Assembly (NCBI GenBank): GCA_036504895.1
Contig: DASXUJ010000087.1
Span: 1 to 48,099 of the forward strand
Direction: 5' to 3'
Length of the DNA: 48,099 nucleotides
From: Syntrophorhabdaceae bacterium
GTDB lineage: Bacteria > Desulfobacterota > Syntrophorhabdia > Syntrophorhabdales > Syntrophorhabdaceae
In this document: piece by piece, positions 17,738-47,597 of the stretch
How the letters are laid out: every line of letters begins with the position of its first letter
Numbering within the stretch: the first letter of the stretch is position 1
Notes under the pieces: generated by a model
What the model was told of the DNA's origin: nothing
Seen by the model: the letters and a program-made list of their open reading frames with translations, nothing else
Database searches by the model: none
Program-made: the position numbers and the translations under genes

Positions 17738-18073
17738 ATGGCGACTAAAAAAACTGAGGGCGCTGACAAGGCGGTGAAGGCCAAAGCCGCGCCAAAGAAA
17801 GAGCCGGAAAAGAAGAGCGCGGCCAAGGGAAAACCGGTTGCGCCCGCTGCCAAAAGAGCCGGCGCTCCCAAAAAGGCTGAGGCGCCTAAAACTGCCGCCG
17901 CCACAGCCAAATCCGTGAAGAGCGTCAAAGCGAAGGCTCCGAAGAACGGCGCCGTAAAGAAGGGATCGAAATTCGAATGTGCGGAATGCGGAATGGTCGT
18001 CGTAGTTGACGAAGCCTGCTCCTGCCCTGCATGCGATCTCATCTGCTGTGGGGAAAGCATGGAATTGTGCTGA
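17738..18073 (+). CDS. Histone-H1-like Lys/Ala/Pro-rich protein with C-terminal zinc-ribbon-like motif
   Basis: A 111-residue protein in two parts. Residues 1 to about 78 are low-complexity and strongly basic (repeats of AKAAPKK, KSAAKGK, APKKAEAPK), like bacterial H1-type DNA-binding tails. The last 33 residues are different: FECAECGMVVVVDEACSCPA continuing to CDLICCGESMELC, with pairs CAEC, CSCPAC and CC that suggest a small zinc ribbon or rubredoxin-like knot. AGGGGG lies six bases before the ATG, a good promoter is upstream and an intrinsic terminator follows, so it is a single-gene unit. A nucleoid-associated or DNA-bound metal-sensing role is inference. Confidence 0.8.
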   Translation: MATKKTEGADKAVKAKAAPKKEPEKKSAAKGKPVAPAAKRAGAPKKAEAPKTAAATAKSVKSVKAKAPKNGAVKKGSKFECAECGMVVVVDEACSCPACDLICCGESMELC

Positions 18074-18219: not shown

Positions 18220-18768
18220 ATGTTAAAAGACTGGAAACTCATAGATTCCAATGTAGACCGGGACTACAAGATCTTCCGGATAAAAATAGAACAGGCCCTC
18301 TCTCCCAGAACCAACGAAGAAGGTCGTTTTTATGTGATCGACACGAATGACTGGGTCAATGTCATCCCCGTCACGGAAGACGGAAAGATCGTGATGATCC
18401 GCCAGTGGCGGCATGGCTCAAAGGAGATCACCCTCGAGATACCGGGCGGTCTTGTCGACGAGTCCGATCCTATGGAGGCCGCCGAGCGAGAGCTTCTGGA
18501 GGAGACGGGCTATAAGGGAGAGCGCGTTTCATTCCTCGGCTCCATCAATCCGAATCCGGCCATATTCAACAACCTCTGCCATACCTATCTCATAGAAGGG
18601 GCAAGAAAGGTGGGGGAGACTAATTTCGATGCCGACGAGGACATCGAAGTGGAGCTTCTCCCCATATCGGAGGTAGCTTCGCTGATCGAAAAAGGCGCGA
18701 TAAACCATGCCCTCGTTATCGTAGCCTTTCACCACTACTTTCGTAAATTTCCCGATCATTTGAAGTAG
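18220..18768 (+). CDS. Nudix hydrolase, ADP-ribose pyrophosphatase type
   Basis: A 182-residue Nudix protein. The box reads GGLVDESDPMEAAERELLEE followed by TGY: the metal-binding REL.EE core is intact, while the first conserved Glu position is occupied by Ser. The surrounding SINPNPAIFNNLCHTYLIEG segment is typical of the ADP-ribose/NDP-sugar pyrophosphatase subgroup (NudF/YffH-like). Likely cleaves ADP-ribose or a related nucleoside diphosphate derivative in the cytoplasm. It stands alone between the terminator at 18150 and the convergent lpxC fusion. Ribosome binding site is weak (GAAAG). Confidence 0.88.
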   Translation: MLKDWKLIDSNVDRDYKIFRIKIEQALSPRTNEEGRFYVIDTNDWVNVIPVTEDGKIVMIRQWRHGSKEITLEIPGGLVDESDPMEAAERELLEETGYKGERVSFLGSINPNPAIFNNLCHTYLIEGARKVGETNFDADEDIEVELLPISEVASLIEKGAINHALVIVAFHHYFRKFPDHLK

Positions 18769-18886: not shown

Positions 18887-20140
18887 TTAACTGTATAGCT
18901 TCTTGAGCTCTTTCATGAGGGCTATGTTTTCCAGGTGCCCTGTCTGTTTTGCGGTTATTTTGCCGATCACGGGCCTGTTGAGGAGGTAGGTGTCTCCGAT
19001 CACGTCCAGGATCTTGTGGCGCACAAATTCGTCCTCGAATCTGAGTTTCGTATTTACCACCCCTTCATCGCTCAGGATGATGACATTCATCATCACATTA
19101 TCGATTCTTCCACCCTGTCCCATTCTGGCGAGCCGCTCGAAATCCTTTATGAAGCCGAATGTCCTCGCGGGGGCGATCTCATTGATGAAAGAATCTTTAT
19201 CAGCCTTGAAATGGTATCTCTGGGCGCCGATGGGTTTTCCGTGCTCCAGCACGTAATCTATCTCGAACCCGTCCGACGGCTCTATGGAGAGATACTGGGA
19301 ATCATTGAGGTTTTTGAGGACCACCTTTTCCGTTATTTTCAGGGGCTCGATCCCTTCTCTCTGCTCCAGCACACCCGCTTCTTCGATCTTCATGCATATC
19401 TCTTTTGCCGAGCCGTCAAAGATAGGCACCTCTTCGCTCACCTTCACGAGAAGGTTGGTTATGCCGTACATATGAAGGGTGGCAAGAAGATGCTCTATGG
19501 TCCTCACGATGCAGGTCTTTCCTTTTACCGATGAGGAATAGCCTACGGAATAGACGTAATCGATAAACGCGGGAATGCGCTCGCCGTCCGGAATATGCTC
19601 GAAGACTATACCCGAACCCTCGGGCATGGGCAGCAGTATCATGCCTGTCTTCACACCAGAGAACAGGCCCGCCCCATATACGACGATGCTCTTCCCTATG
19701 GTCTTCTGGGTGCGAATGCTCTGCCCCCGGGACATTCCTATTTTCACATCTTCCACGGGTTCGGAGCGCTTCGCATCGCCCGCCAGATACCTCTGGATCA
19801 CTTCGAGTACCTTATCGATGGAAAGGGGCTTCTCAAGGAAATCATAGGCCCCCAGCTTCACCGCCTCTACGGCGGTAGAGATGGTCCCATGGCCGGACAT
19901 GACGATTACGATGGCGTCTTTATCCTTCTCTCTTATCTTCTTGAGCACCTGAAGCCCATCCATCTCGGGCATCCAAATGTCTAAGAGGACCACTTCCGGT
20001 GCTTCTCTTTCGAATATGGCAAGACCTTCCTGGCCGTCGCCCGCCTCGAGCACGTGGAACCCCTCGTCTCCCAATATTGAAGAGAGGGCGTGGACTATAT
20101 TTTTCTCGTCGTCTATGATGAGTACCTTATGCACGGTCAT
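18887..20140 (-). CDS. lpxC: Response-regulator receiver domain fused to UDP-3-O-acyl-GlcNAc deacetylase (LpxC)
   Basis: A 417-residue fusion. Residues 1-120 are a complete receiver domain: acidic pocket D10-D11, phospho-acceptor D54 in VVLLDIWMPEMDG, S82 and K104 in FLEKP, most like NtrC/NtrX-type receivers. After a short linker, residues 141-417 are LpxC, the committed and normally tightly regulated step of lipid A synthesis. Zinc and catalytic residues are present: E216-H217 in RTIEHLLATL, H375 and D379 in DEFVRHKILDVIGD, H402 in TGHLENIAL, plus PIFDGSA. One departure: the GLHSG motif reads GLFSG (F160), the position altered in the E. coli envA1 mutant. LpxC alone is about 300 residues. 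No cognate kinase is adjacent. It diverges from the phoH promoter. Confidence 0.95.
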   Translation of the reverse strand: MTVHKVLIIDDEKNIVHALSSILGDEGFHVLEAGDGQEGLAIFEREAPEVVLLDIWMPEMDGLQVLKKIREKDKDAIVIVMSGHGTISTAVEAVKLGAYDFLEKPLSIDKVLEVIQRYLAGDAKRSEPVEDVKIGMSRGQSIRTQKTIGKSIVVYGAGLFSGVKTGMILLPMPEGSGIVFEHIPDGERIPAFIDYVYSVGYSSSVKGKTCIVRTIEHLLATLHMYGITNLLVKVSEEVPIFDGSAKEICMKIEEAGVLEQREGIEPLKITEKVVLKNLNDSQYLSIEPSDGFEIDYVLEHGKPIGAQRYHFKADKDSFINEIAPARTFGFIKDFERLARMGQGGRIDNVMMNVIILSDEGVVNTKLRFEDEFVRHKILDVIGDTYLLNRPVIGKITAKQTGHLENIALMKELKKLYS

Positions 20141-20233: not shown

Positions 20234-21250
20234 ATGGAGGTATTCAAAGTTTTATTGGAAGACAGAAGGAATGAAGAGGGGCATCTCAAGTTGTCCTTTG
20301 ACGACACAAATGTAGCGCGTAATCTTTTTGGTCCACAAGACGAGAATATCAAATATCTACGGAAGTACTTCAATGTAAAAACAAGCATTAGAGGAAACCA
20401 CCTCACCATTATAGGGGAAAAGAAAGAGGTCGAGAATACCAATAAAGTAATCGGCGAGCTCCAGGGCATCATCAGGAAGGGTTTCGTGGTCAGTTGTTCC
20501 GATATCGACCATGCGGTCCGGTACGTCGCCCATACACAGAACGCGGTGGACGAGCTTTATAAAGACCAGATCTATATATTCCCCTCGAAAAAGGTAATCA
20601 CACCCAAGTCGGCAAATCAGAAAGCGTACATTGAGGCTATAAAAACACACGACATGGTCATAGGCGTAGGACCGGCGGGAACAGGTAAAACCTACCTTGC
20701 CATGGCAATGGCCCTTTCCGCATATTACAGGAAGGAGGTCTCGAGGATCATTCTCACGAGACCCGCCATAGAGGCCGGTGAAAAATTGGGATACCTGCCC
20801 GGGACCCTGTACGACAAAGTAAACCCTTATCTCAGGCCTCTTTATGATGCCCTTTATGATATGGTCGATATGGAGAGGGGTACAAGACTCCTGGAAAAGG
20901 GCGTGATCGAGATCGCGCCCCTGGCGTTCATGCGGGGCCGAACGCTCAACGACGCGTTCATCATCCTCGATGAAGCCCAGAATACGGCATCGGAGCAGAT
21001 GAAGATGTTTCTCACGAGGCTGGGCTTCTCATCCAAGACCGTAATTACGGGGGACGTGACGCAGATCGACCTCCCCGACAAGAGATCGAGCGGCCTGGTA
21101 GAGATCCAGACCATATTGAAGGGTATAAAAGGGATTCATTTCGTCAATTTCAGCGGAACAGACGTGGTACGCCATCCTCTCGTCCGGAAGATTATAAAAG
21201 CATATGAGAAGAAAGGCGCGGAGGGGGGAAATAAACATGCAGAACGGTAA
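20234..21250 (+). CDS. phoH: PhoH-family ATPase
   Basis: A 338-residue cytoplasmic P-loop protein of the PhoH/YbeZ group. An N-terminal KH-like region (about residues 15-75) precedes the ATPase core with Walker A GVGPAGTGKTYLA and Walker B AFIILDEAQNT, then LTRLGFSSKTVITGD and the arginine region. PhoL-type proteins work with YbeY in RNA and ribosome metabolism, and here ybeY is two genes downstream. I use the ATG at 20234; the ribosome binding site there is not evident (GGAGG lies just inside the coding sequence). First gene of phoH-pgpH-ybeY-lnt. Confidence 0.95.
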   Translation: MEVFKVLLEDRRNEEGHLKLSFDDTNVARNLFGPQDENIKYLRKYFNVKTSIRGNHLTIIGEKKEVENTNKVIGELQGIIRKGFVVSCSDIDHAVRYVAHTQNAVDELYKDQIYIFPSKKVITPKSANQKAYIEAIKTHDMVIGVGPAGTGKTYLAMAMALSAYYRKEVSRIILTRPAIEAGEKLGYLPGTLYDKVNPYLRPLYDALYDMVDMERGTRLLEKGVIEIAPLAFMRGRTLNDAFIILDEAQNTASEQMKMFLTRLGFSSKTVITGDVTQIDLPDKRSSGLVEIQTILKGIKGIHFVNFSGTDVVRHPLVRKIIKAYEKKGAEGGNKHAER

Positions 21251-22955
21251 GGACAAGAAAGAGAAACCTCCCTCGTATCCCGATTTAAAAAGAGTTCTTG
21301 TTTTTGCGGTCTTCGCCCTTTGCCTTACCCTCGTTATCCATGCGGCATATCCGCTCCTGATACCCGCCTACCAATACGGAGACATAGCCGGCGGCAATAT
21401 CAAATCACCCGTGGAGTTTCGCATTCCTACCACCGGCGAGATGGTGAAGAAAGGCGAGATCATCGTGCGCGAGGGGGAGCGGATCACCGATTACCATGTG
21501 GCCGTGCTCTCCGCCCTGAAGGAGGCTGAAAAGGCGGAAACCCTAAACGTCCGGAAATTCCTTGCCATCTTTATTCTCCTCCTCCTTTCCGTAACGATCA
21601 TCTACGAGTATGCCAACAGAAATATCAAGAAATTCGTGGTTTCGGAGAAAGACCTTATTTTCGGGCTTCTTCTTATCCTCTTCACCGTCTCCTTCGTAAA
21701 AAGCTGCTTCCTTATTTTCGGTCATTTTGCCCGGGACAATATGTCCGACCTGATCTACGTGATCCCCATTTTTCTCTTCGGGATCATCGTCAGGATCGTA
21801 CTTTTTTCCGAAGCGGCTCTCGCATTCTCCCTGATCTATGCCATTGCCATGGGGCTCGCGTTTCAGAGCAGCCTCCAGGTCTTTCTCTACACCCTTCTTG
21901 CAAATATCGCTGCTTCATATTTTTCGGGTAAGTGCGAGAACAGGAACACCATACTGAAAGCGGGGATCTATACGGCTTTTATCATGAGCTTCGTGATGAT
22001 CCTCTTTCACGTGCTCTTTAACGACCCTGCCTCCAATATCCCCACTAAAATCGCCCTAATTTTGTTGTCCGGCATCGGCAGCAGCTTCATCGCCCTCGGC
22101 CTTCTCCCCGTGATAGAGCACCTTTTCGGCTATACGACCGACATAAAGCTCCTCGAGCTCGCGAACCTGGAACATCCGCTCCTCGAACAGATGATGATCG
22201 AGGCGCCGGGCACGTACCACCATAGCATTGTGGTGGGGAACCTTGCCAAGGCGGCGGCGGAGAGCATCGGGGCCCATCCGCTCCTTACCAGGGTTTCGTC
22301 CTATTATCACGATATAGGAAAATTGAAGCTCCCCCATTATTTCATCGAAAACCGGACCGATTTCGATGACGCCCACAAGACCCTCACCCCGAATATGAGC
22401 GCCCTCATCATCCTCTCCCATGTCAAGGAGGGAATCGAGCTGGCTGAAAAATACAAGCTCGGAAAGAAGATCACCGATACCGTGCGACAGCACCATGGGA
22501 CGAGCCTTGTGCACTATTTTTACAACAGAGCAAAAGAGCTGGAGGACCCCAAGCTCCACCTGGTGGATGAAAAGGAATTCAGGTACGCCGGGCCAAGGCC
22601 CCAGACAAAGGAAGCCGGCATCCTCATGCTCGCCGACGCGGTGGAGGCGGCCTCGCGAATCCTCGCAGAACCGACGCCGAAAAGAATCGAGACCCACGTG
22701 CAGAATATTATCGAGCAGATATTCTTAGATGGTCAGCTCGACGAATGTGAGCTGACGCTCAAGGACCTCCATGCGATCCAGAAAAGCTTCATCGCCATTC
22801 TTATCGGCACATTCCACCACCGCATTCAATATCCGGAAAGGACGACGCCCCATGACGGCACTGATAAAAGATACCCAAAAGCTGTTGAAGACGGACAAAA
22901 AGCGCATACGAGAGATAACGGGAAACCTTCTCACGTATTTAAAGCTACCGGATAG
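21237..22955 (+). CDS. 7TM-HD domain protein, PgpH-type cyclic-di-AMP phosphodiesterase
   Basis: A membrane protein of 572 residues: one N-terminal helix, a reduced extracytoplasmic region of about 100 residues (GNIKSPVEFRIPTTGEMVKK...), seven predicted membrane segments, and a cytoplasmic HDIG domain (APGTYHHSIVVGNLAKAAAE, then YYHDIGKL with His-Asp near residues 358-359, and LMLADAVEAASR). The family hydrolyses c-di-AMP; the outer domain is shorter than in Firmicute PgpH. The frame is open from 21204, but the ATG at 21237 has GGAGGGGGG just upstream and overlaps the phoH stop by 14 bases. Its last 34 codons or so overlap ybeY by 104 bases in another frame, which is unusually long. Confidence 0.9.
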   Translation: MQNGKDKKEKPPSYPDLKRVLVFAVFALCLTLVIHAAYPLLIPAYQYGDIAGGNIKSPVEFRIPTTGEMVKKGEIIVREGERITDYHVAVLSALKEAEKAETLNVRKFLAIFILLLLSVTIIYEYANRNIKKFVVSEKDLIFGLLLILFTVSFVKSCFLIFGHFARDNMSDLIYVIPIFLFGIIVRIVLFSEAALAFSLIYAIAMGLAFQSSLQVFLYTLLANIAASYFSGKCENRNTILKAGIYTAFIMSFVMILFHVLFNDPASNIPTKIALILLSGIGSSFIALGLLPVIEHLFGYTTDIKLLELANLEHPLLEQMMIEAPGTYHHSIVVGNLAKAAAESIGAHPLLTRVSSYYHDIGKLKLPHYFIENRTDFDDAHKTLTPNMSALIILSHVKEGIELAEKYKLGKKITDTVRQHHGTSLVHYFYNRAKELEDPKLHLVDEKEFRYAGPRPQTKEAGILMLADAVEAASRILAEPTPKRIETHVQNIIEQIFLDGQLDECELTLKDLHAIQKSFIAILIGTFHHRIQYPERTTPHDGTDKRYPKAVEDGQKAHTRDNGKPSHVFKATG

Positions 22956-25595: not shown

Positions 25596-26516
25596 CTATA
25601 CCGGCCACCGGGAACTGCATAGCGGGATACTCGTCCCCATGACCGAATCCGGAAGGGGTATGGGCTCCGCCACCGCACGGCCTCTTTCGACAAGGGGCAA
25701 TCGTATCTTTATTGAACTCCCTTCGCCCGGCGCGCTCACCACTTCTATAACGCCCGCGTGTTGCTTCACTATTCCATACACCTTCGATAGACCGAGACCC
25801 ATGTTGGTTCCGGGTCCCTTGGTCGTGAAGAAAGGCTCGAATACCTTTTCCCGGGTCCCTTCATCCATTCCCGATCCCGTATCCGTTACCGACAGGCTTA
25901 CGAATGCGGGTTCAGCGCCGCAGGCAAGCCCCTCGTCCGTGAATACCGGTTCGGTCCGAATCGTCAGCGTGCCGCCGGAAGGCATGGCATCGCGCGCATT
26001 TTCAATGAGGTTGGCCAGGACTTCTTCCATCCTCACCACGTCGGCCATAATGAAAAGGCTGCTCTCGTGGAGCTCGACCTTTGTCTTTATTCTCTCTTTT
26101 TCGAATGCGAGGAACCTCCCCGCTCTCTTCACTACCCTGTTAAGGTCCACTTGTCTGAGCCGGCTCTTCTCGTCCCCTGTGAAGAGCAGAAGACTTCTCA
26201 CCAGATCGTGGGCCCTTAGCGACGATGCGAGCATCTTCTCCACAAAGACCAGAGAAGGGTCGTCTTTCTCCATCTTCGACTTGAGAAGTCCCCCATAGCC
26301 CGACATTACGGAAAGAATATTATTGAAGTGATGGGCAATCTGGGATGCAAACTGCATTATCCCCGCCATATCCGTGTCATCGGGGGATGGCTCGTGGCCT
26401 GTAACCATCTTGACGTCTTGCTGCCCCCCTCCCGTCAGTTCCCGGCCGCTCCAGCGGATAAGCCTTTTTGCGACTTCATCCTGAAAATTACCCGTGTGAG
26501 TTTCGGAATTGATCAT
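25596..26516 (-). CDS. Soluble histidine kinase
   Basis: A kinase of about 306 residues with no membrane segment and no recognisable PAS or GAF sensor. Residues 1-50 are low-information, then a dimerisation/phosphoacceptor helix (ASQIAHHFNNILSVMSGYGG), the N-box NLIENARDAMP, and G-boxes VTDTGSGMDEG, FEPFFTTKGPG and GLGLSKVYGIV. The ATG at 26516 is preceded by GGAGG at five bases and is preferred over the ATG at 26528, which overlaps that site. It is the last gene of the sigma-54-driven unit that starts at 27246; the receiver partner could be the sigma-54 activator at 27472-28893. Confidence 0.9.
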   Translation of the reverse strand: MINSETHTGNFQDEVAKRLIRWSGRELTGGGQQDVKMVTGHEPSPDDTDMAGIMQFASQIAHHFNNILSVMSGYGGLLKSKMEKDDPSLVFVEKMLASSLRAHDLVRSLLLFTGDEKSRLRQVDLNRVVKRAGRFLAFEKERIKTKVELHESSLFIMADVVRMEEVLANLIENARDAMPSGGTLTIRTEPVFTDEGLACGAEPAFVSLSVTDTGSGMDEGTREKVFEPFFTTKGPGTNMGLGLSKVYGIVKQHAGVIEVVSAPGEGSSIKIRLPLVERGRAVAEPIPLPDSVMGTSIPLCSSRWPV

Positions 26517-26546
26517 CTGCTCCTCCATTAAAACTAAACCTGCCTT

Positions 26547-37497: not shown

Positions 37498-39303
37498 CTA
37501 TTCCCTTGGCGGCCCGTTCTTGTCGAGTACCCGCCGGATTGCCTCTGCCAGGTCGCGTTTGGCGAGGGGTTTCAAGAGGAATTCTTTAATCCCCGCTTCC
37601 GTCGCCATCTCCGGAGATGCAGTTTCGCTGTACCCCGTGCAGAGGATAACCGGGATATCCGGCCTTACCTTCACGAGTTCCTTTGCGAGATCTAATCCGG
37701 TCAGGGCAGGCATCGTATGATCCGTAATGACGACATCGAACTTGCCGGGATTATCCATGAATATGCGAAGTGCGTCCAGGCTGTCCGTTACCCCGACAAC
37801 TTTGTACCCGAGACGCCTGAGAGTCGTCCGGCCCCACTCCACAAGGGCCTCATCGTCATCGACGAAGAGGATAAGTCCGGTCCCGTGCGGGATTTCATCC
37901 AGGGCGATTTCATCCGATTGAACGGCTGGTTCAGCTTGAGGGATGAAGATTTTGAAAGTAGTGCCTTTTCCCGGTACGCTCCTGACGGTAATGTCGCCGT
38001 GGATGCTCTTCACAATACCGTACGTGACCGCAAGGCCCATGCCCGTACCCTGGCCCGGTTCCTTTGTGGTAAAAAAGGGATCGAAGATCCTTTTTATTAC
38101 CTCAGACTTCAGGCCTGTGCCGGTGTCTTTTACGCTGAAAAGCAAGTAGGGCCCTGGTTCCAGACCGGCAGGCAGCGTCGAATGAGACAAGCCCGCATCA
38201 CGGACCGTTATCGTGAGTCTACCCCCTCCCGTGGCCCGCATGGCGAAGCCGGCATTGGTGCATAAATTCATGATCACTTGTTGCATCTGCGACGGATCGG
38301 CAAGGACCGTGTCCGACGTGGTCTTTATCTTCACATCAATCTCAACGGTGGAAGGGAGCGAGGCCCTCAGGAGCTTGACCGTCTCCTTGATAAGGGGGGT
38401 CAGTTGGAGGGGGACGACGTCCGGATAGCTTTTCCGGCTGAAGGCAAGGATCTGATTTACGAGGTCCCTCCCCCTGAAGGCTGCTTTCAGGACATGATCA
38501 TGGGCACGGGCTACGGCGCTGTTGCCGGGTTCGCTGTCATCGATCGCCATCTCGGTAAATCCTATGACCGCAGCCAGCATATTGTTGAAATCGTGCGCGA
38601 TCCCACCGGCTAAAGTGCCGACAGCCTCCATCTTTTCCGACTGGCGCAGCCTTTCCTCCATCTCCTCCCGCGTGGCCACCTCCGCTTTGAGCCTGTCGTG
38701 TGCTTCTTTCAGATCGGCGGTACGCTCCTGAACCCGCTGTTCCAGTTCCTCGTGGGCCGTTTTGAGCGCCTTCTCTGCCCGCATGCGCTCATTGATATCG
38801 GTGAGGGCGGCACGCACTATATTCTGTCCATTAATGCTTACCCCGACGCTGTCCAGTTGGACATGGATTGCTGCGCCGTCATGCCGCTTGAGCGCCAGTT
38901 CGCAGGTCTGCTTTGTGAAGGACCTGAACGCCTCCCGAATGTGAAGATAGAATGTGTCCTGAAAGTCACGATCGAGAAAGCGGGAAAAGGGCCTGTTGAT
39001 AAGAGATTTCCGTTCAACACCCAGAAACCCTGCCGCGGTGAGGTTAAGTTCGGTGATCAAGCCCTTCTCACTCAAGGTAAGGTAACCGACCGGGGCGAGG
39101 TCGTAAAGCTCGAAATACTTCTCCCTTGATTTTTCAATCTCAAGCTGGGATGCCCGAAGCTCTTCGTTCTGCATCTCCAGTTCGATCTGGTGGACCTCAA
39201 GCTGATGGGTAAGTGAACCTGCGTCAAGGGGCGGTTCTTTCCCCGTCCTCACAGACAGGGTCTTCTCTGCTTCTTCCCAGAGCGTGTCCTGTTTGAAGCC
39301 CAT
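37498..39303 (-). CDS. Hybrid sensor histidine kinase with PAS domain
   Basis: 601 residues, soluble. Order: N-terminal coiled region with LTHQLEVHQIELEMQNEELR (a common lead-in to PAS kinases), PAS domain from about residue 60 (YDLAPVGYLTLSEKGLI), a coiled coil (about 175-225), HisKA with GTLAGGIAHDFNNMLAAVIG, HATPase with NLCTNAGFAM, VKDTGTGLKSEV and GTGMGLAVTYGIV, and a C-terminal receiver with the acceptor Asp in VVITDHTMPALTG. It is a single gene downstream of the tRNA scar and shares no strand partner; the signal is unknown. Confidence 0.93.
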   Translation of the reverse strand: MGFKQDTLWEEAEKTLSVRTGKEPPLDAGSLTHQLEVHQIELEMQNEELRASQLEIEKSREKYFELYDLAPVGYLTLSEKGLITELNLTAAGFLGVERKSLINRPFSRFLDRDFQDTFYLHIREAFRSFTKQTCELALKRHDGAAIHVQLDSVGVSINGQNIVRAALTDINERMRAEKALKTAHEELEQRVQERTADLKEAHDRLKAEVATREEMEERLRQSEKMEAVGTLAGGIAHDFNNMLAAVIGFTEMAIDDSEPGNSAVARAHDHVLKAAFRGRDLVNQILAFSRKSYPDVVPLQLTPLIKETVKLLRASLPSTVEIDVKIKTTSDTVLADPSQMQQVIMNLCTNAGFAMRATGGGRLTITVRDAGLSHSTLPAGLEPGPYLLFSVKDTGTGLKSEVIKRIFDPFFTTKEPGQGTGMGLAVTYGIVKSIHGDITVRSVPGKGTTFKIFIPQAEPAVQSDEIALDEIPHGTGLILFVDDDEALVEWGRTTLRRLGYKVVGVTDSLDALRIFMDNPGKFDVVITDHTMPALTGLDLAKELVKVRPDIPVILCTGYSETASPEMATEAGIKEFLLKPLAKRDLAEAIRRVLDKNGPPRE

Positions 39304-46025: not shown

Positions 46026-47597
46026 GTGTCTAACCGTTATCTGTATGACAAGCTTACACAAATGAATCCTGCTCTTGCGGGTGAATTGGATAACATTTAT
46101 AAAGAAACGCTCAAGATGTGGGCTGAGCAAGCCTTCCGACTATATACGGCGCACGGGCAACCACACATTGAGCAAGTAGAGCAGAATCTCGATAATTTAA
46201 CGCGCCCTCTTATGGAATCCGCGATGCCATTGGAGCCGGAAGAGATTTATGTTCTGTTAGCAGCTTGCTGTTTGCATGATATCGGGATGCAGCTCGATGA
46301 GCCTGATGCAAGAGAAAAACATGCGCAATATGCCTACGATCTTATTCTTTATTCTTCGGCCCAGATAGGCCCGGAAGTAAGGCGAATCACTCTACCAATC
46401 ACCGATACTAACCAGCGCCAAGCTATAGCTCTTATCGCCAGAGCGCACTGGACAGATTTTGCTCTAGCGCTTGATTCGGAAGATTACATTTTCAACAATC
46501 GACGGGGGCGACTCCGGCTTTTAGGGACACTGCTTGCACTGGCAGACCTATTAGATATTTCTCCGGTTCGCGCACGGTATTTTCGAACCATTCACCGCCT
46601 TTACGATTTAAACCCCGTATCTGAGTTGCACCAGGTTAAGCATGCCCTCGTCAAGGGATTTCAAATCGTAACGCCTAATCCGATGCTTAGAAACGAGCTA
46701 CAGTTTCAACTTTCTTGGCATAAGGACGACGATATCGTACGCGATATGGCGGATTGGATCATGCAGTGGTTTAATTCGCAGTGGAGACAGTTGAGCCCAG
46801 AGATCTATGAAATGTCCCGCGGTACTATTGGTTGGGCAAAACCGTGGGCAAAAGTTGCGTTCAACGCTCAAAAAGGGCCGTTGCCGGATTTGAAAGTTGA
46901 TGCTCTTAACATACTTAAGGCGGAAAGAGCTGAACAACGCCGTATCGATCGGGATCTAATTGTTGCAAGATTCAGGGGGGCAATTCAAAACGGAGAAACG
47001 AAGCTTTTCTTGTTTTCAAAAGACCCTGATTTTGATGGACGTGAGCTCACAAGATGGTGCGAGGCAGATGCAAGTCTGCAGAACGGATGTTTAGTTGCAC
47101 GCGCTGATATTCAGGCGAATATCCCATTGGATTTAGCGAGTATTGTTTCGCAGCTTATGGAACAATTCGGCAGACACATGGCGCAAAGCTCAGATATTGA
47201 CGCCTTGGAAGAGCTTCGAGCCTTCGCATCAACAACTGAAAAACCAATCGTCAGTATCATTATTACAGATCAATATCGAAGCGATATTATAAATCGACTG
47301 CTCAGGACTCTTGCCCTGCGGCCTGATACAAATCCTCCTGTTGCTAGGGTTTGTTTGTATCTCTCGACTGGAGCAAGGGGGCCGAAAGAACTTCTCGGGG
47401 TTGAAATTGAAGACTTTGCTGGCTCCTTTTTCACTCGTGAAGATGTAGAAAAGCATTTGAAAACGAATTGGGGTTACACTGATAATGAGGCATGCGAAAT
47501 ATGCGATAAAATGTCTGGAATAGGCATCGATAGAGAACCGGGAAAAATCTATAATTATATTAATTGGCATTGCGGGATTTCGTCGCTTTACGAGTAA
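46026..47597 (+). CDS. HD-domain protein with C-terminal STAND-like module
   Basis: 523 residues from a GTG (AGGA six bases upstream). The N-terminal half is an HD phosphohydrolase-type domain with all metal positions: H47 (GQPHIEQV), H84-D85 (LLAACCLHDIGMQ), H141 (LIARAHWTDF) and D174 (LLALADLLDISPVR). It resembles the HD-CE group found in predicted conflict systems. The C-terminal half (about 312-500) has strand patterns like a STAND NTPase core (ETKLFLFSKDPDFDG, CLVARADIQANIPLDLASIV, PIVSIIITDQYRSD) but no P-loop, suggesting an inactive nucleotide-binding fold. Base composition is visibly more A/T-rich than the rest of the window. A second gene of the locus follows after 69 bases. Function unknown; defence is inference. 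Confidence 0.75.
   Translation: MSNRYLYDKLTQMNPALAGELDNIYKETLKMWAEQAFRLYTAHGQPHIEQVEQNLDNLTRPLMESAMPLEPEEIYVLLAACCLHDIGMQLDEPDAREKHAQYAYDLILYSSAQIGPEVRRITLPITDTNQRQAIALIARAHWTDFALALDSEDYIFNNRRGRLRLLGTLLALADLLDISPVRARYFRTIHRLYDLNPVSELHQVKHALVKGFQIVTPNPMLRNELQFQLSWHKDDDIVRDMADWIMQWFNSQWRQLSPEIYEMSRGTIGWAKPWAKVAFNAQKGPLPDLKVDALNILKAERAEQRRIDRDLIVARFRGAIQNGETKLFLFSKDPDFDGRELTRWCEADASLQNGCLVARADIQANIPLDLASIVSQLMEQFGRHMAQSSDIDALEELRAFASTTEKPIVSIIITDQYRSDIINRLLRTLALRPDTNPPVARVCLYLSTGARGPKELLGVEIEDFAGSFFTREDVEKHLKTNWGYTDNEACEICDKMSGIGIDREPGKIYNYINWHCGISSLYE

Follow-up and report, generated by a model that had tools for sequence, protein, structure and literature searches.

A receiver-LpxC fusion with an NtrX-type receiver, and its likely control by an NtrY-family kinase, in Syntrophorhabdaceae and related bacteria

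Introduction

LpxC is the committed enzyme of lipid A synthesis, and in E. coli it is controlled by proteolysis. How lipid A is balanced outside the enteric bacteria is an open question, on which a gene of a Syntrophorhabdaceae bacterium (assembly GCA_036504895.1) bears. This gene encodes LpxC behind the receiver domain of a response regulator and raises the question of what the receiver does for the enzyme, where it came from and which kinase it answers to. It lies on contig DASXUJ010000087.1, of which positions 1 to 48,099 (48,099 nucleotides, the whole stretch analysed) are referred to here as the window.

Enzymatic response regulators and control of lpxC transcription by NtrYX are both already known. 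In R. sphaeroides without NtrYX, lpxC mRNA is increased 8.8-fold and the amount of LPS is doubled; an NtrX site at lpxC was not found in this organism (PMC7240162), and the effect of NtrYX there is therefore apparently indirect. In D. vulgaris, lpxC is the only mapped target of the regulator DVU2934, and S. fumaroxidans carries lpxC immediately upstream of the operon that encodes the orthologous regulator (PMC3333781). DVU2934 is presumably the local NtrX. The means of control listed in a 2025 review of lipid A regulation are proteolysis, regulation of transcription and a small number of partner proteins; direct two-component control of LpxC activity is not among them, and the review makes no mention of a receiver-LpxC fusion (PMC12444477).

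Architecture of the fusion protein

The window gene (18887-20140, minus strand) encodes a protein of 417 amino acids without an internal stop (Table 1). Pfam models matched a receiver (Response_reg, PF00072) at residues 6-115 (E = 3e-31, 108.3 bits) and LpxC (PF03331) at residues 145-413 (E = 1.3e-72, 245 bits against a cut-off of 27), and the protein also passed the curated cut-off of TIGR00325 (205.4 against 187.25). The receiver contains D10, D11, D54, S82 and K104, that is, the two acidic residues, the acceptor aspartate, the Ser/Thr and the lysine expected of a receiver. The zinc and catalytic residues of the LpxC domain are complete (E216, H217, H375, D379, D383 and H402), and the protein keeps what we take to be the equivalents of E78, H79, T191, F192, H238, K239, D242, D246 and H265 of E. 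coli LpxC. The intact receiver and complete LpxC domain described in a first-pass annotation of this DNA were thus confirmed. In an AlphaFold2 model built with 26 family members (mean pLDDT 85.4, pTM 0.85) the receiver fold is present, whereas the linker at residues 122-140 has pLDDT below 50 and is predicted to be disordered. The top Foldseek matches of the model are solved LpxC structures, the best being A. aeolicus LpxC. The C-terminus, KELKKLYS, differs from what we take to be the tail of E. coli LpxC. An internal start that would yield free LpxC was considered at M136 and at a nearby GTG and was rejected, as neither is conserved in the alignment.

A single PF03331 match, the fusion itself, was found in the window genome (4.35 Mb, 138 contigs, completeness 100). 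A second, normal lpxC, which the first-pass annotation had named, together with loss of activity in the fusion, as evidence that would count against its proposal, is thus missing from this genome. LpxA was found, so the lipid A pathway is likely to be active.

Table 1. Coordinates of the fusion gene, its parts, its neighbours and the ntrY gene of the same genome
Feature	Position	Strand	Basis or remark
Receiver-LpxC fusion gene, 417 aa, the only lpxC of the genome	18887..20140	-	ORF, Pfam, genome-wide PF03331 search
Receiver domain, residues 6-115, NtrX-type	19796..20125	-	PF00072; closer to NtrX than to other NtrC-type receivers
D54 codon, predicted phospho-acceptor	19979..19981	-	Kept in 64/65 fusions
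Linker, residues 122-140, predicted disordered	19721..19777	-	AlphaFold2 pLDDT <50
LpxC deacetylase domain, residues 145-413	18902..19708	-	Zinc/catalytic residues complete; Foldseek
F160 codon, position of the His in GLHSG	19661..19663	-	Phe in 4/65, His in 61/65 fusions
phoH, divergent neighbour (context only)	20234..21250	+	Pfam PF02562; adjoins the fusion in most of 15 named Syntrophorhabdia-type contigs
NUDIX hydrolase, convergent neighbour (context only)	18220..18768	+	Pfam, locus comparison
Single ntrY of the window genome	G000:C100:8607-10730		Profile score; on another contig than the fusion

The fusion gene is monocistronic and is placed between the divergent phoH gene and the convergent NUDIX gene, a context common to most of the named Syntrophorhabdia-type contigs. 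Three other plus-strand genes of the window were also noted. The gene at 17738-18073 encodes an Ala/Lys-rich protein of 111 amino acids with a cysteine cluster at its C-terminus and no Pfam match. The gene at 21204-22955 encodes a 7TM-HD (PgpH-type) protein in which the extracellular 7TMR-HDED model is matched over its last 27 positions only, so that the outer domain seems to be mostly missing. The gene at 46026-47597 encodes an HD-CE domain protein; clear genes are otherwise sparse in this part of the window.

Distribution and conservation of the fusion

A GTDB genome scan identified the same architecture on 26 further named contigs, which belong to Syntrophorhabdus and related bins, Binatia and Oligoflexia. 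In an evenly drawn sample of 198 genomes of the phylum, the fusion was verified in at least 43. The search for this architecture across genomes, which had been suggested with the first annotation, yielded 65 distinct fusions in all. Their origin in independent assemblies excludes a missed stop in the stretch from residue 121 to residue 140, and an artefact or chimera was likewise ruled out.

The equivalents of D10, D11, D54 and K104 and a Ser/Thr at position 82 are kept in 64 of the 65 fusions, the exception (L127) having a garbled N-terminus. Substitutions of the LpxC catalytic residues were found in none of the 65, one partial sequence being without the last His position. Receiver identity between fusions drops to 39%, and the conservation of these residues is therefore not due to recent copying. 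The residue F160 had been read as a change at the envA1 position that may lower basal activity. The phenylalanine is real, but the family as a whole does not bear this reading out, since His occupies the position in 61 of the 65 fusions and Phe in four.

In a quick tree with 54 solo LpxC domains, a single branch (support 99) has every fused LpxC domain on the same side of it, which fits a single fusion event. As judged by these comparisons, the fusion marks a whole branch of mostly uncultured bacteria. It is the sole LpxC in nearly all of the sampled genomes that carry it. The exception is G047, which contains both fused and solo LpxC (L153, L226, L089), the solo copy lying beside the only NtrY of the genome; this genome is binned, with 5% contamination, and may be a mixture. 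Family f28 includes genomes with fused LpxC (L116, L137) and with solo LpxC (L271, L274-L276), so that it may show the fusion being lost or transferred.

Origin of the receiver

All 64 fusion receivers compared scored better with NtrX receivers than with any of the remaining NtrC-type receivers of the set; none of 25 NtrC-type control receivers did so. The receiver of the window protein scored 136 bits to NtrX and 106 bits to the best other NtrC-type receiver. These scores indicate that the fusion receiver descends from NtrX.

Ten longer relatives in the set have a whole NtrX-like protein ahead of LpxC. One of them, L160, gives E = 8.5e-103 with the NtrX model NF051870 over positions 3-452, although its score is lower than 600 bits, the curated cut-off. 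The GAFTGA loop is required for sigma-54 activation. This loop is gone in all nine long NtrX-LpxC proteins that could be compared, whereas it is kept in 8/8 free NtrX proteins. The AAA+ and DNA-binding parts are absent from the remaining fusions, the window protein included. The window protein is therefore a derivative of NtrX rather than an NtrX. In L160, L161 and L142-L147, the Walker A motif of the AAA+ domain is kept despite the loss of GAFTGA, and the ATPase of these proteins may have a new role.

A separate NtrX was found in none of the eight fusion genomes searched, in which the best such protein scored 366-416 bits, the level of other NtrC-type regulators. All eight solo-LpxC genomes searched contain a separate NtrX with 500-527 bits.

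Gene fusions can persist neutrally, and the receiver could on that ground be a vestigial or structural leftover of a chance fusion. The phosphorylation residues are, however, kept in 64 of 65 fusions across one broad clade, and the AAA+ loop and the DNA-binding part have decayed in the same proteins in which the receiver was kept, which makes an inert receiver unlikely. We consider this explanation highly improbable.

NtrY as the likely kinase

In 23 loci the fusion is directly preceded by a gene for an NtrY-type histidine kinase, often with overlapping ends. These NtrY-like kinases contain HAMP, PAS, HisKA and HATPase domains, and NtrY_N was detected in two of the three that were scanned. Unlike these 23 loci, the window genome has ntrY and the fusion on different contigs. 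It contains one full-length NtrY, which scored 592.6 bits against 145.4 for the next kinase. A single full-length NtrY was also found in all six Syntrophorhabdia relatives and in the other fusion genomes searched. No receiver gene was found beside the separately encoded ntrY in any of 23 cases in fusion genomes, within the available flanks (mostly about 1.5 kb). In the window genome the ntrY contig stops 220 bases past the gene, so its downstream neighbour is known by way of the relatives only; in the relatives, ntrY is followed by smpB (named by eye) or other genes, and not by a receiver gene.

The solo-LpxC genomes of the same phylum have a different arrangement. A receiver gene directly follows ntrY in 17 of the 21 that could be assessed, and lpxC is often located just upstream. 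The order of lpxC and regulator reported for S. fumaroxidans (PMC3333781) matches these loci. Of the four exceptions, three have a waaA-like gene (Kdo transferase, read by eye) after ntrY, with lpxC and a DUF4390 gene upstream of ntrY where the sequence reaches. A waaA-like gene after ntrY and no adjoining receiver gene are seen in L224, L225 and L228, which are thus cases of a lone NtrY without a fusion. In the genomes compared, a receiver on LpxC goes together with the loss of NtrX and the retention of NtrY.

The kinase of the fused receiver is likely to be NtrY. Neither this partner nor the origin from NtrX appeared in the first-pass annotation. The receiver could instead be controlled by another kinase or by acetyl phosphate, as the window genome contains 125 stretches that match histidine kinases, and two kinase genes are encoded in the window itself (25596-26528 and 37498-39303). 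Such control is quite unlikely given that NtrY is operonic with the fusion in 23 loci, is elsewhere single-copy without a neighbouring receiver, and has lost its free NtrX. Contact residues of kinase and receiver are both changed in Syntrophorhabdia; these changes represent one event on one branch, and the covariation was therefore not counted as evidence.

Long open frames in three genomes suggested hybrid kinase-receiver-LpxC proteins of 1000-1400 amino acids. This suggestion was rejected. L158 and L159 have an NtrY gene in an overlapping frame just upstream instead, and the scanned part of the long frame of L157 contains receiver and LpxC only.

Proposed mechanism

The window gene would encode a response regulator with LpxC as its output domain. 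An NtrY-family membrane histidine kinase, in the window genome its single NtrY, would phosphorylate D54, and the phosphorylation state of the receiver would set LpxC output on protein that already exists. This could take place by contact or dimerisation that alters the enzyme, by a change in LpxC stability, or by a change in its place in the cell. The ancestral state would have been an NtrYX operon adjoining lpxC and probably regulating its transcription. One fusion would then have joined NtrX to LpxC, after which the sigma-54-activating loop and later the whole AAA+ and DNA-binding part would have been lost. We assign a probability of about 0.72 to the account as a whole, namely an NtrX-derived receiver, phosphorylation of D54 by NtrY, a phosphorylation state that sets LpxC output, and a single fusion. 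The narrower claim, that a single ancient fusion made NtrX a post-translational regulator and that throughout the clade NtrY, through the phosphorylated receiver, has direct control of the catalytic output of the sole LpxC, is favoured by a small degree over its negation.

The earlier proposal that LpxC is the output of a two-component system therefore stands in outline, with strong comparative support within one clade (receiver residues kept in 64/65, descent from NtrX, an NtrY that is either operonic with the fusion or single-copy without a neighbouring receiver, and loss of free NtrX). The step from this pattern to phosphotransfer by NtrY, and to the direction and manner in which LpxC would respond, is our inference.

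Two further explanations concern the mode of action. The receiver may be a docking or localisation module, with LpxC drawn to the inner membrane through binding to NtrY and with phosphorylation acting on this binding rather than on catalysis. NtrY is a membrane kinase with an extended N-terminal part that gives NtrY_N and HAMP matches in relatives, the disordered linker would suit a tether, and LpxC of N. meningitidis is recruited by the membrane partner Ght (PMC12444477). A pure tether would need no full phosphorylation site, yet the site is kept in 64 of 65 fusions, and we regard docking as an unlikely explanation. Alternatively, the receiver may set the amount of LpxC by phosphorylation-dependent proteolysis, replacing the FtsH/LapB route of E. 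coli, where LpxC is controlled by proteolysis. No separate LapB was seen in the window genome by a search that does not discriminate well: the lone zinc-ribbon match lies in a frame of 476 amino acids, which we take from its size to be RadA, and unfused relatives were likewise without a clear LapB in the same test. We regard control by proteolysis as improbable too. Under the preferred account, in which NtrY acts on LpxC output through D54, a membrane kinase probably controls outer-membrane production directly by phosphorylation in this branch.

Comparison with known systems

The NtrY-NtrX systems of R. sphaeroides and C. crescentus share with the fusion an NtrX-type receiver, an NtrY-family kinase and a link to lpxC and the LPS level (PMC7240162, PMC12444477). 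In those systems NtrX binds DNA and lpxC mRNA changes, apparently indirectly, whereas the receiver described here is covalently joined to LpxC, and free NtrX has disappeared. DVU2931/DVU2934 of D. vulgaris likewise ties a response regulator to lpxC, but by transcriptional control of a separate lpxC gene. E. coli LpxC with FtsH/LapB represents the same enzyme and the same need to limit the committed step, met there by proteolysis and here by a receiver built into the enzyme. CheB and the GGDEF, EAL and HD-GYP regulators also have an N-terminal receiver that switches an enzyme; the open-access literature searched yielded no receiver whose output is a biosynthetic enzyme of lipid A. The LpxC-FabZ fusion (NF009667) is another fusion of LpxC, but its partner is a fatty-acid dehydratase and not a signalling domain. 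The same open-access literature gave no description of a receiver-LpxC fusion, of its origin from NtrX or of its pairing with a lone NtrY, which does not imply that none exists elsewhere.

Significance

The fusion explains why these genomes keep NtrY but have no NtrX, and it points to a link between NtrYX and LpxC in the ancestor. It also extends the known outputs of response regulators to a biosynthetic enzyme. With regulator and target united in one protein by evolution, genome sequences can show which kinase limits lipid A, and two purified proteins suffice to test the pairing. A natural on/off control of LpxC, which is an antibiotic target, is therefore of wider interest. If the proposed mechanism is true, a two-component system in a large clade of bacteria would have lipid A synthesis as its immediate enzymatic output.
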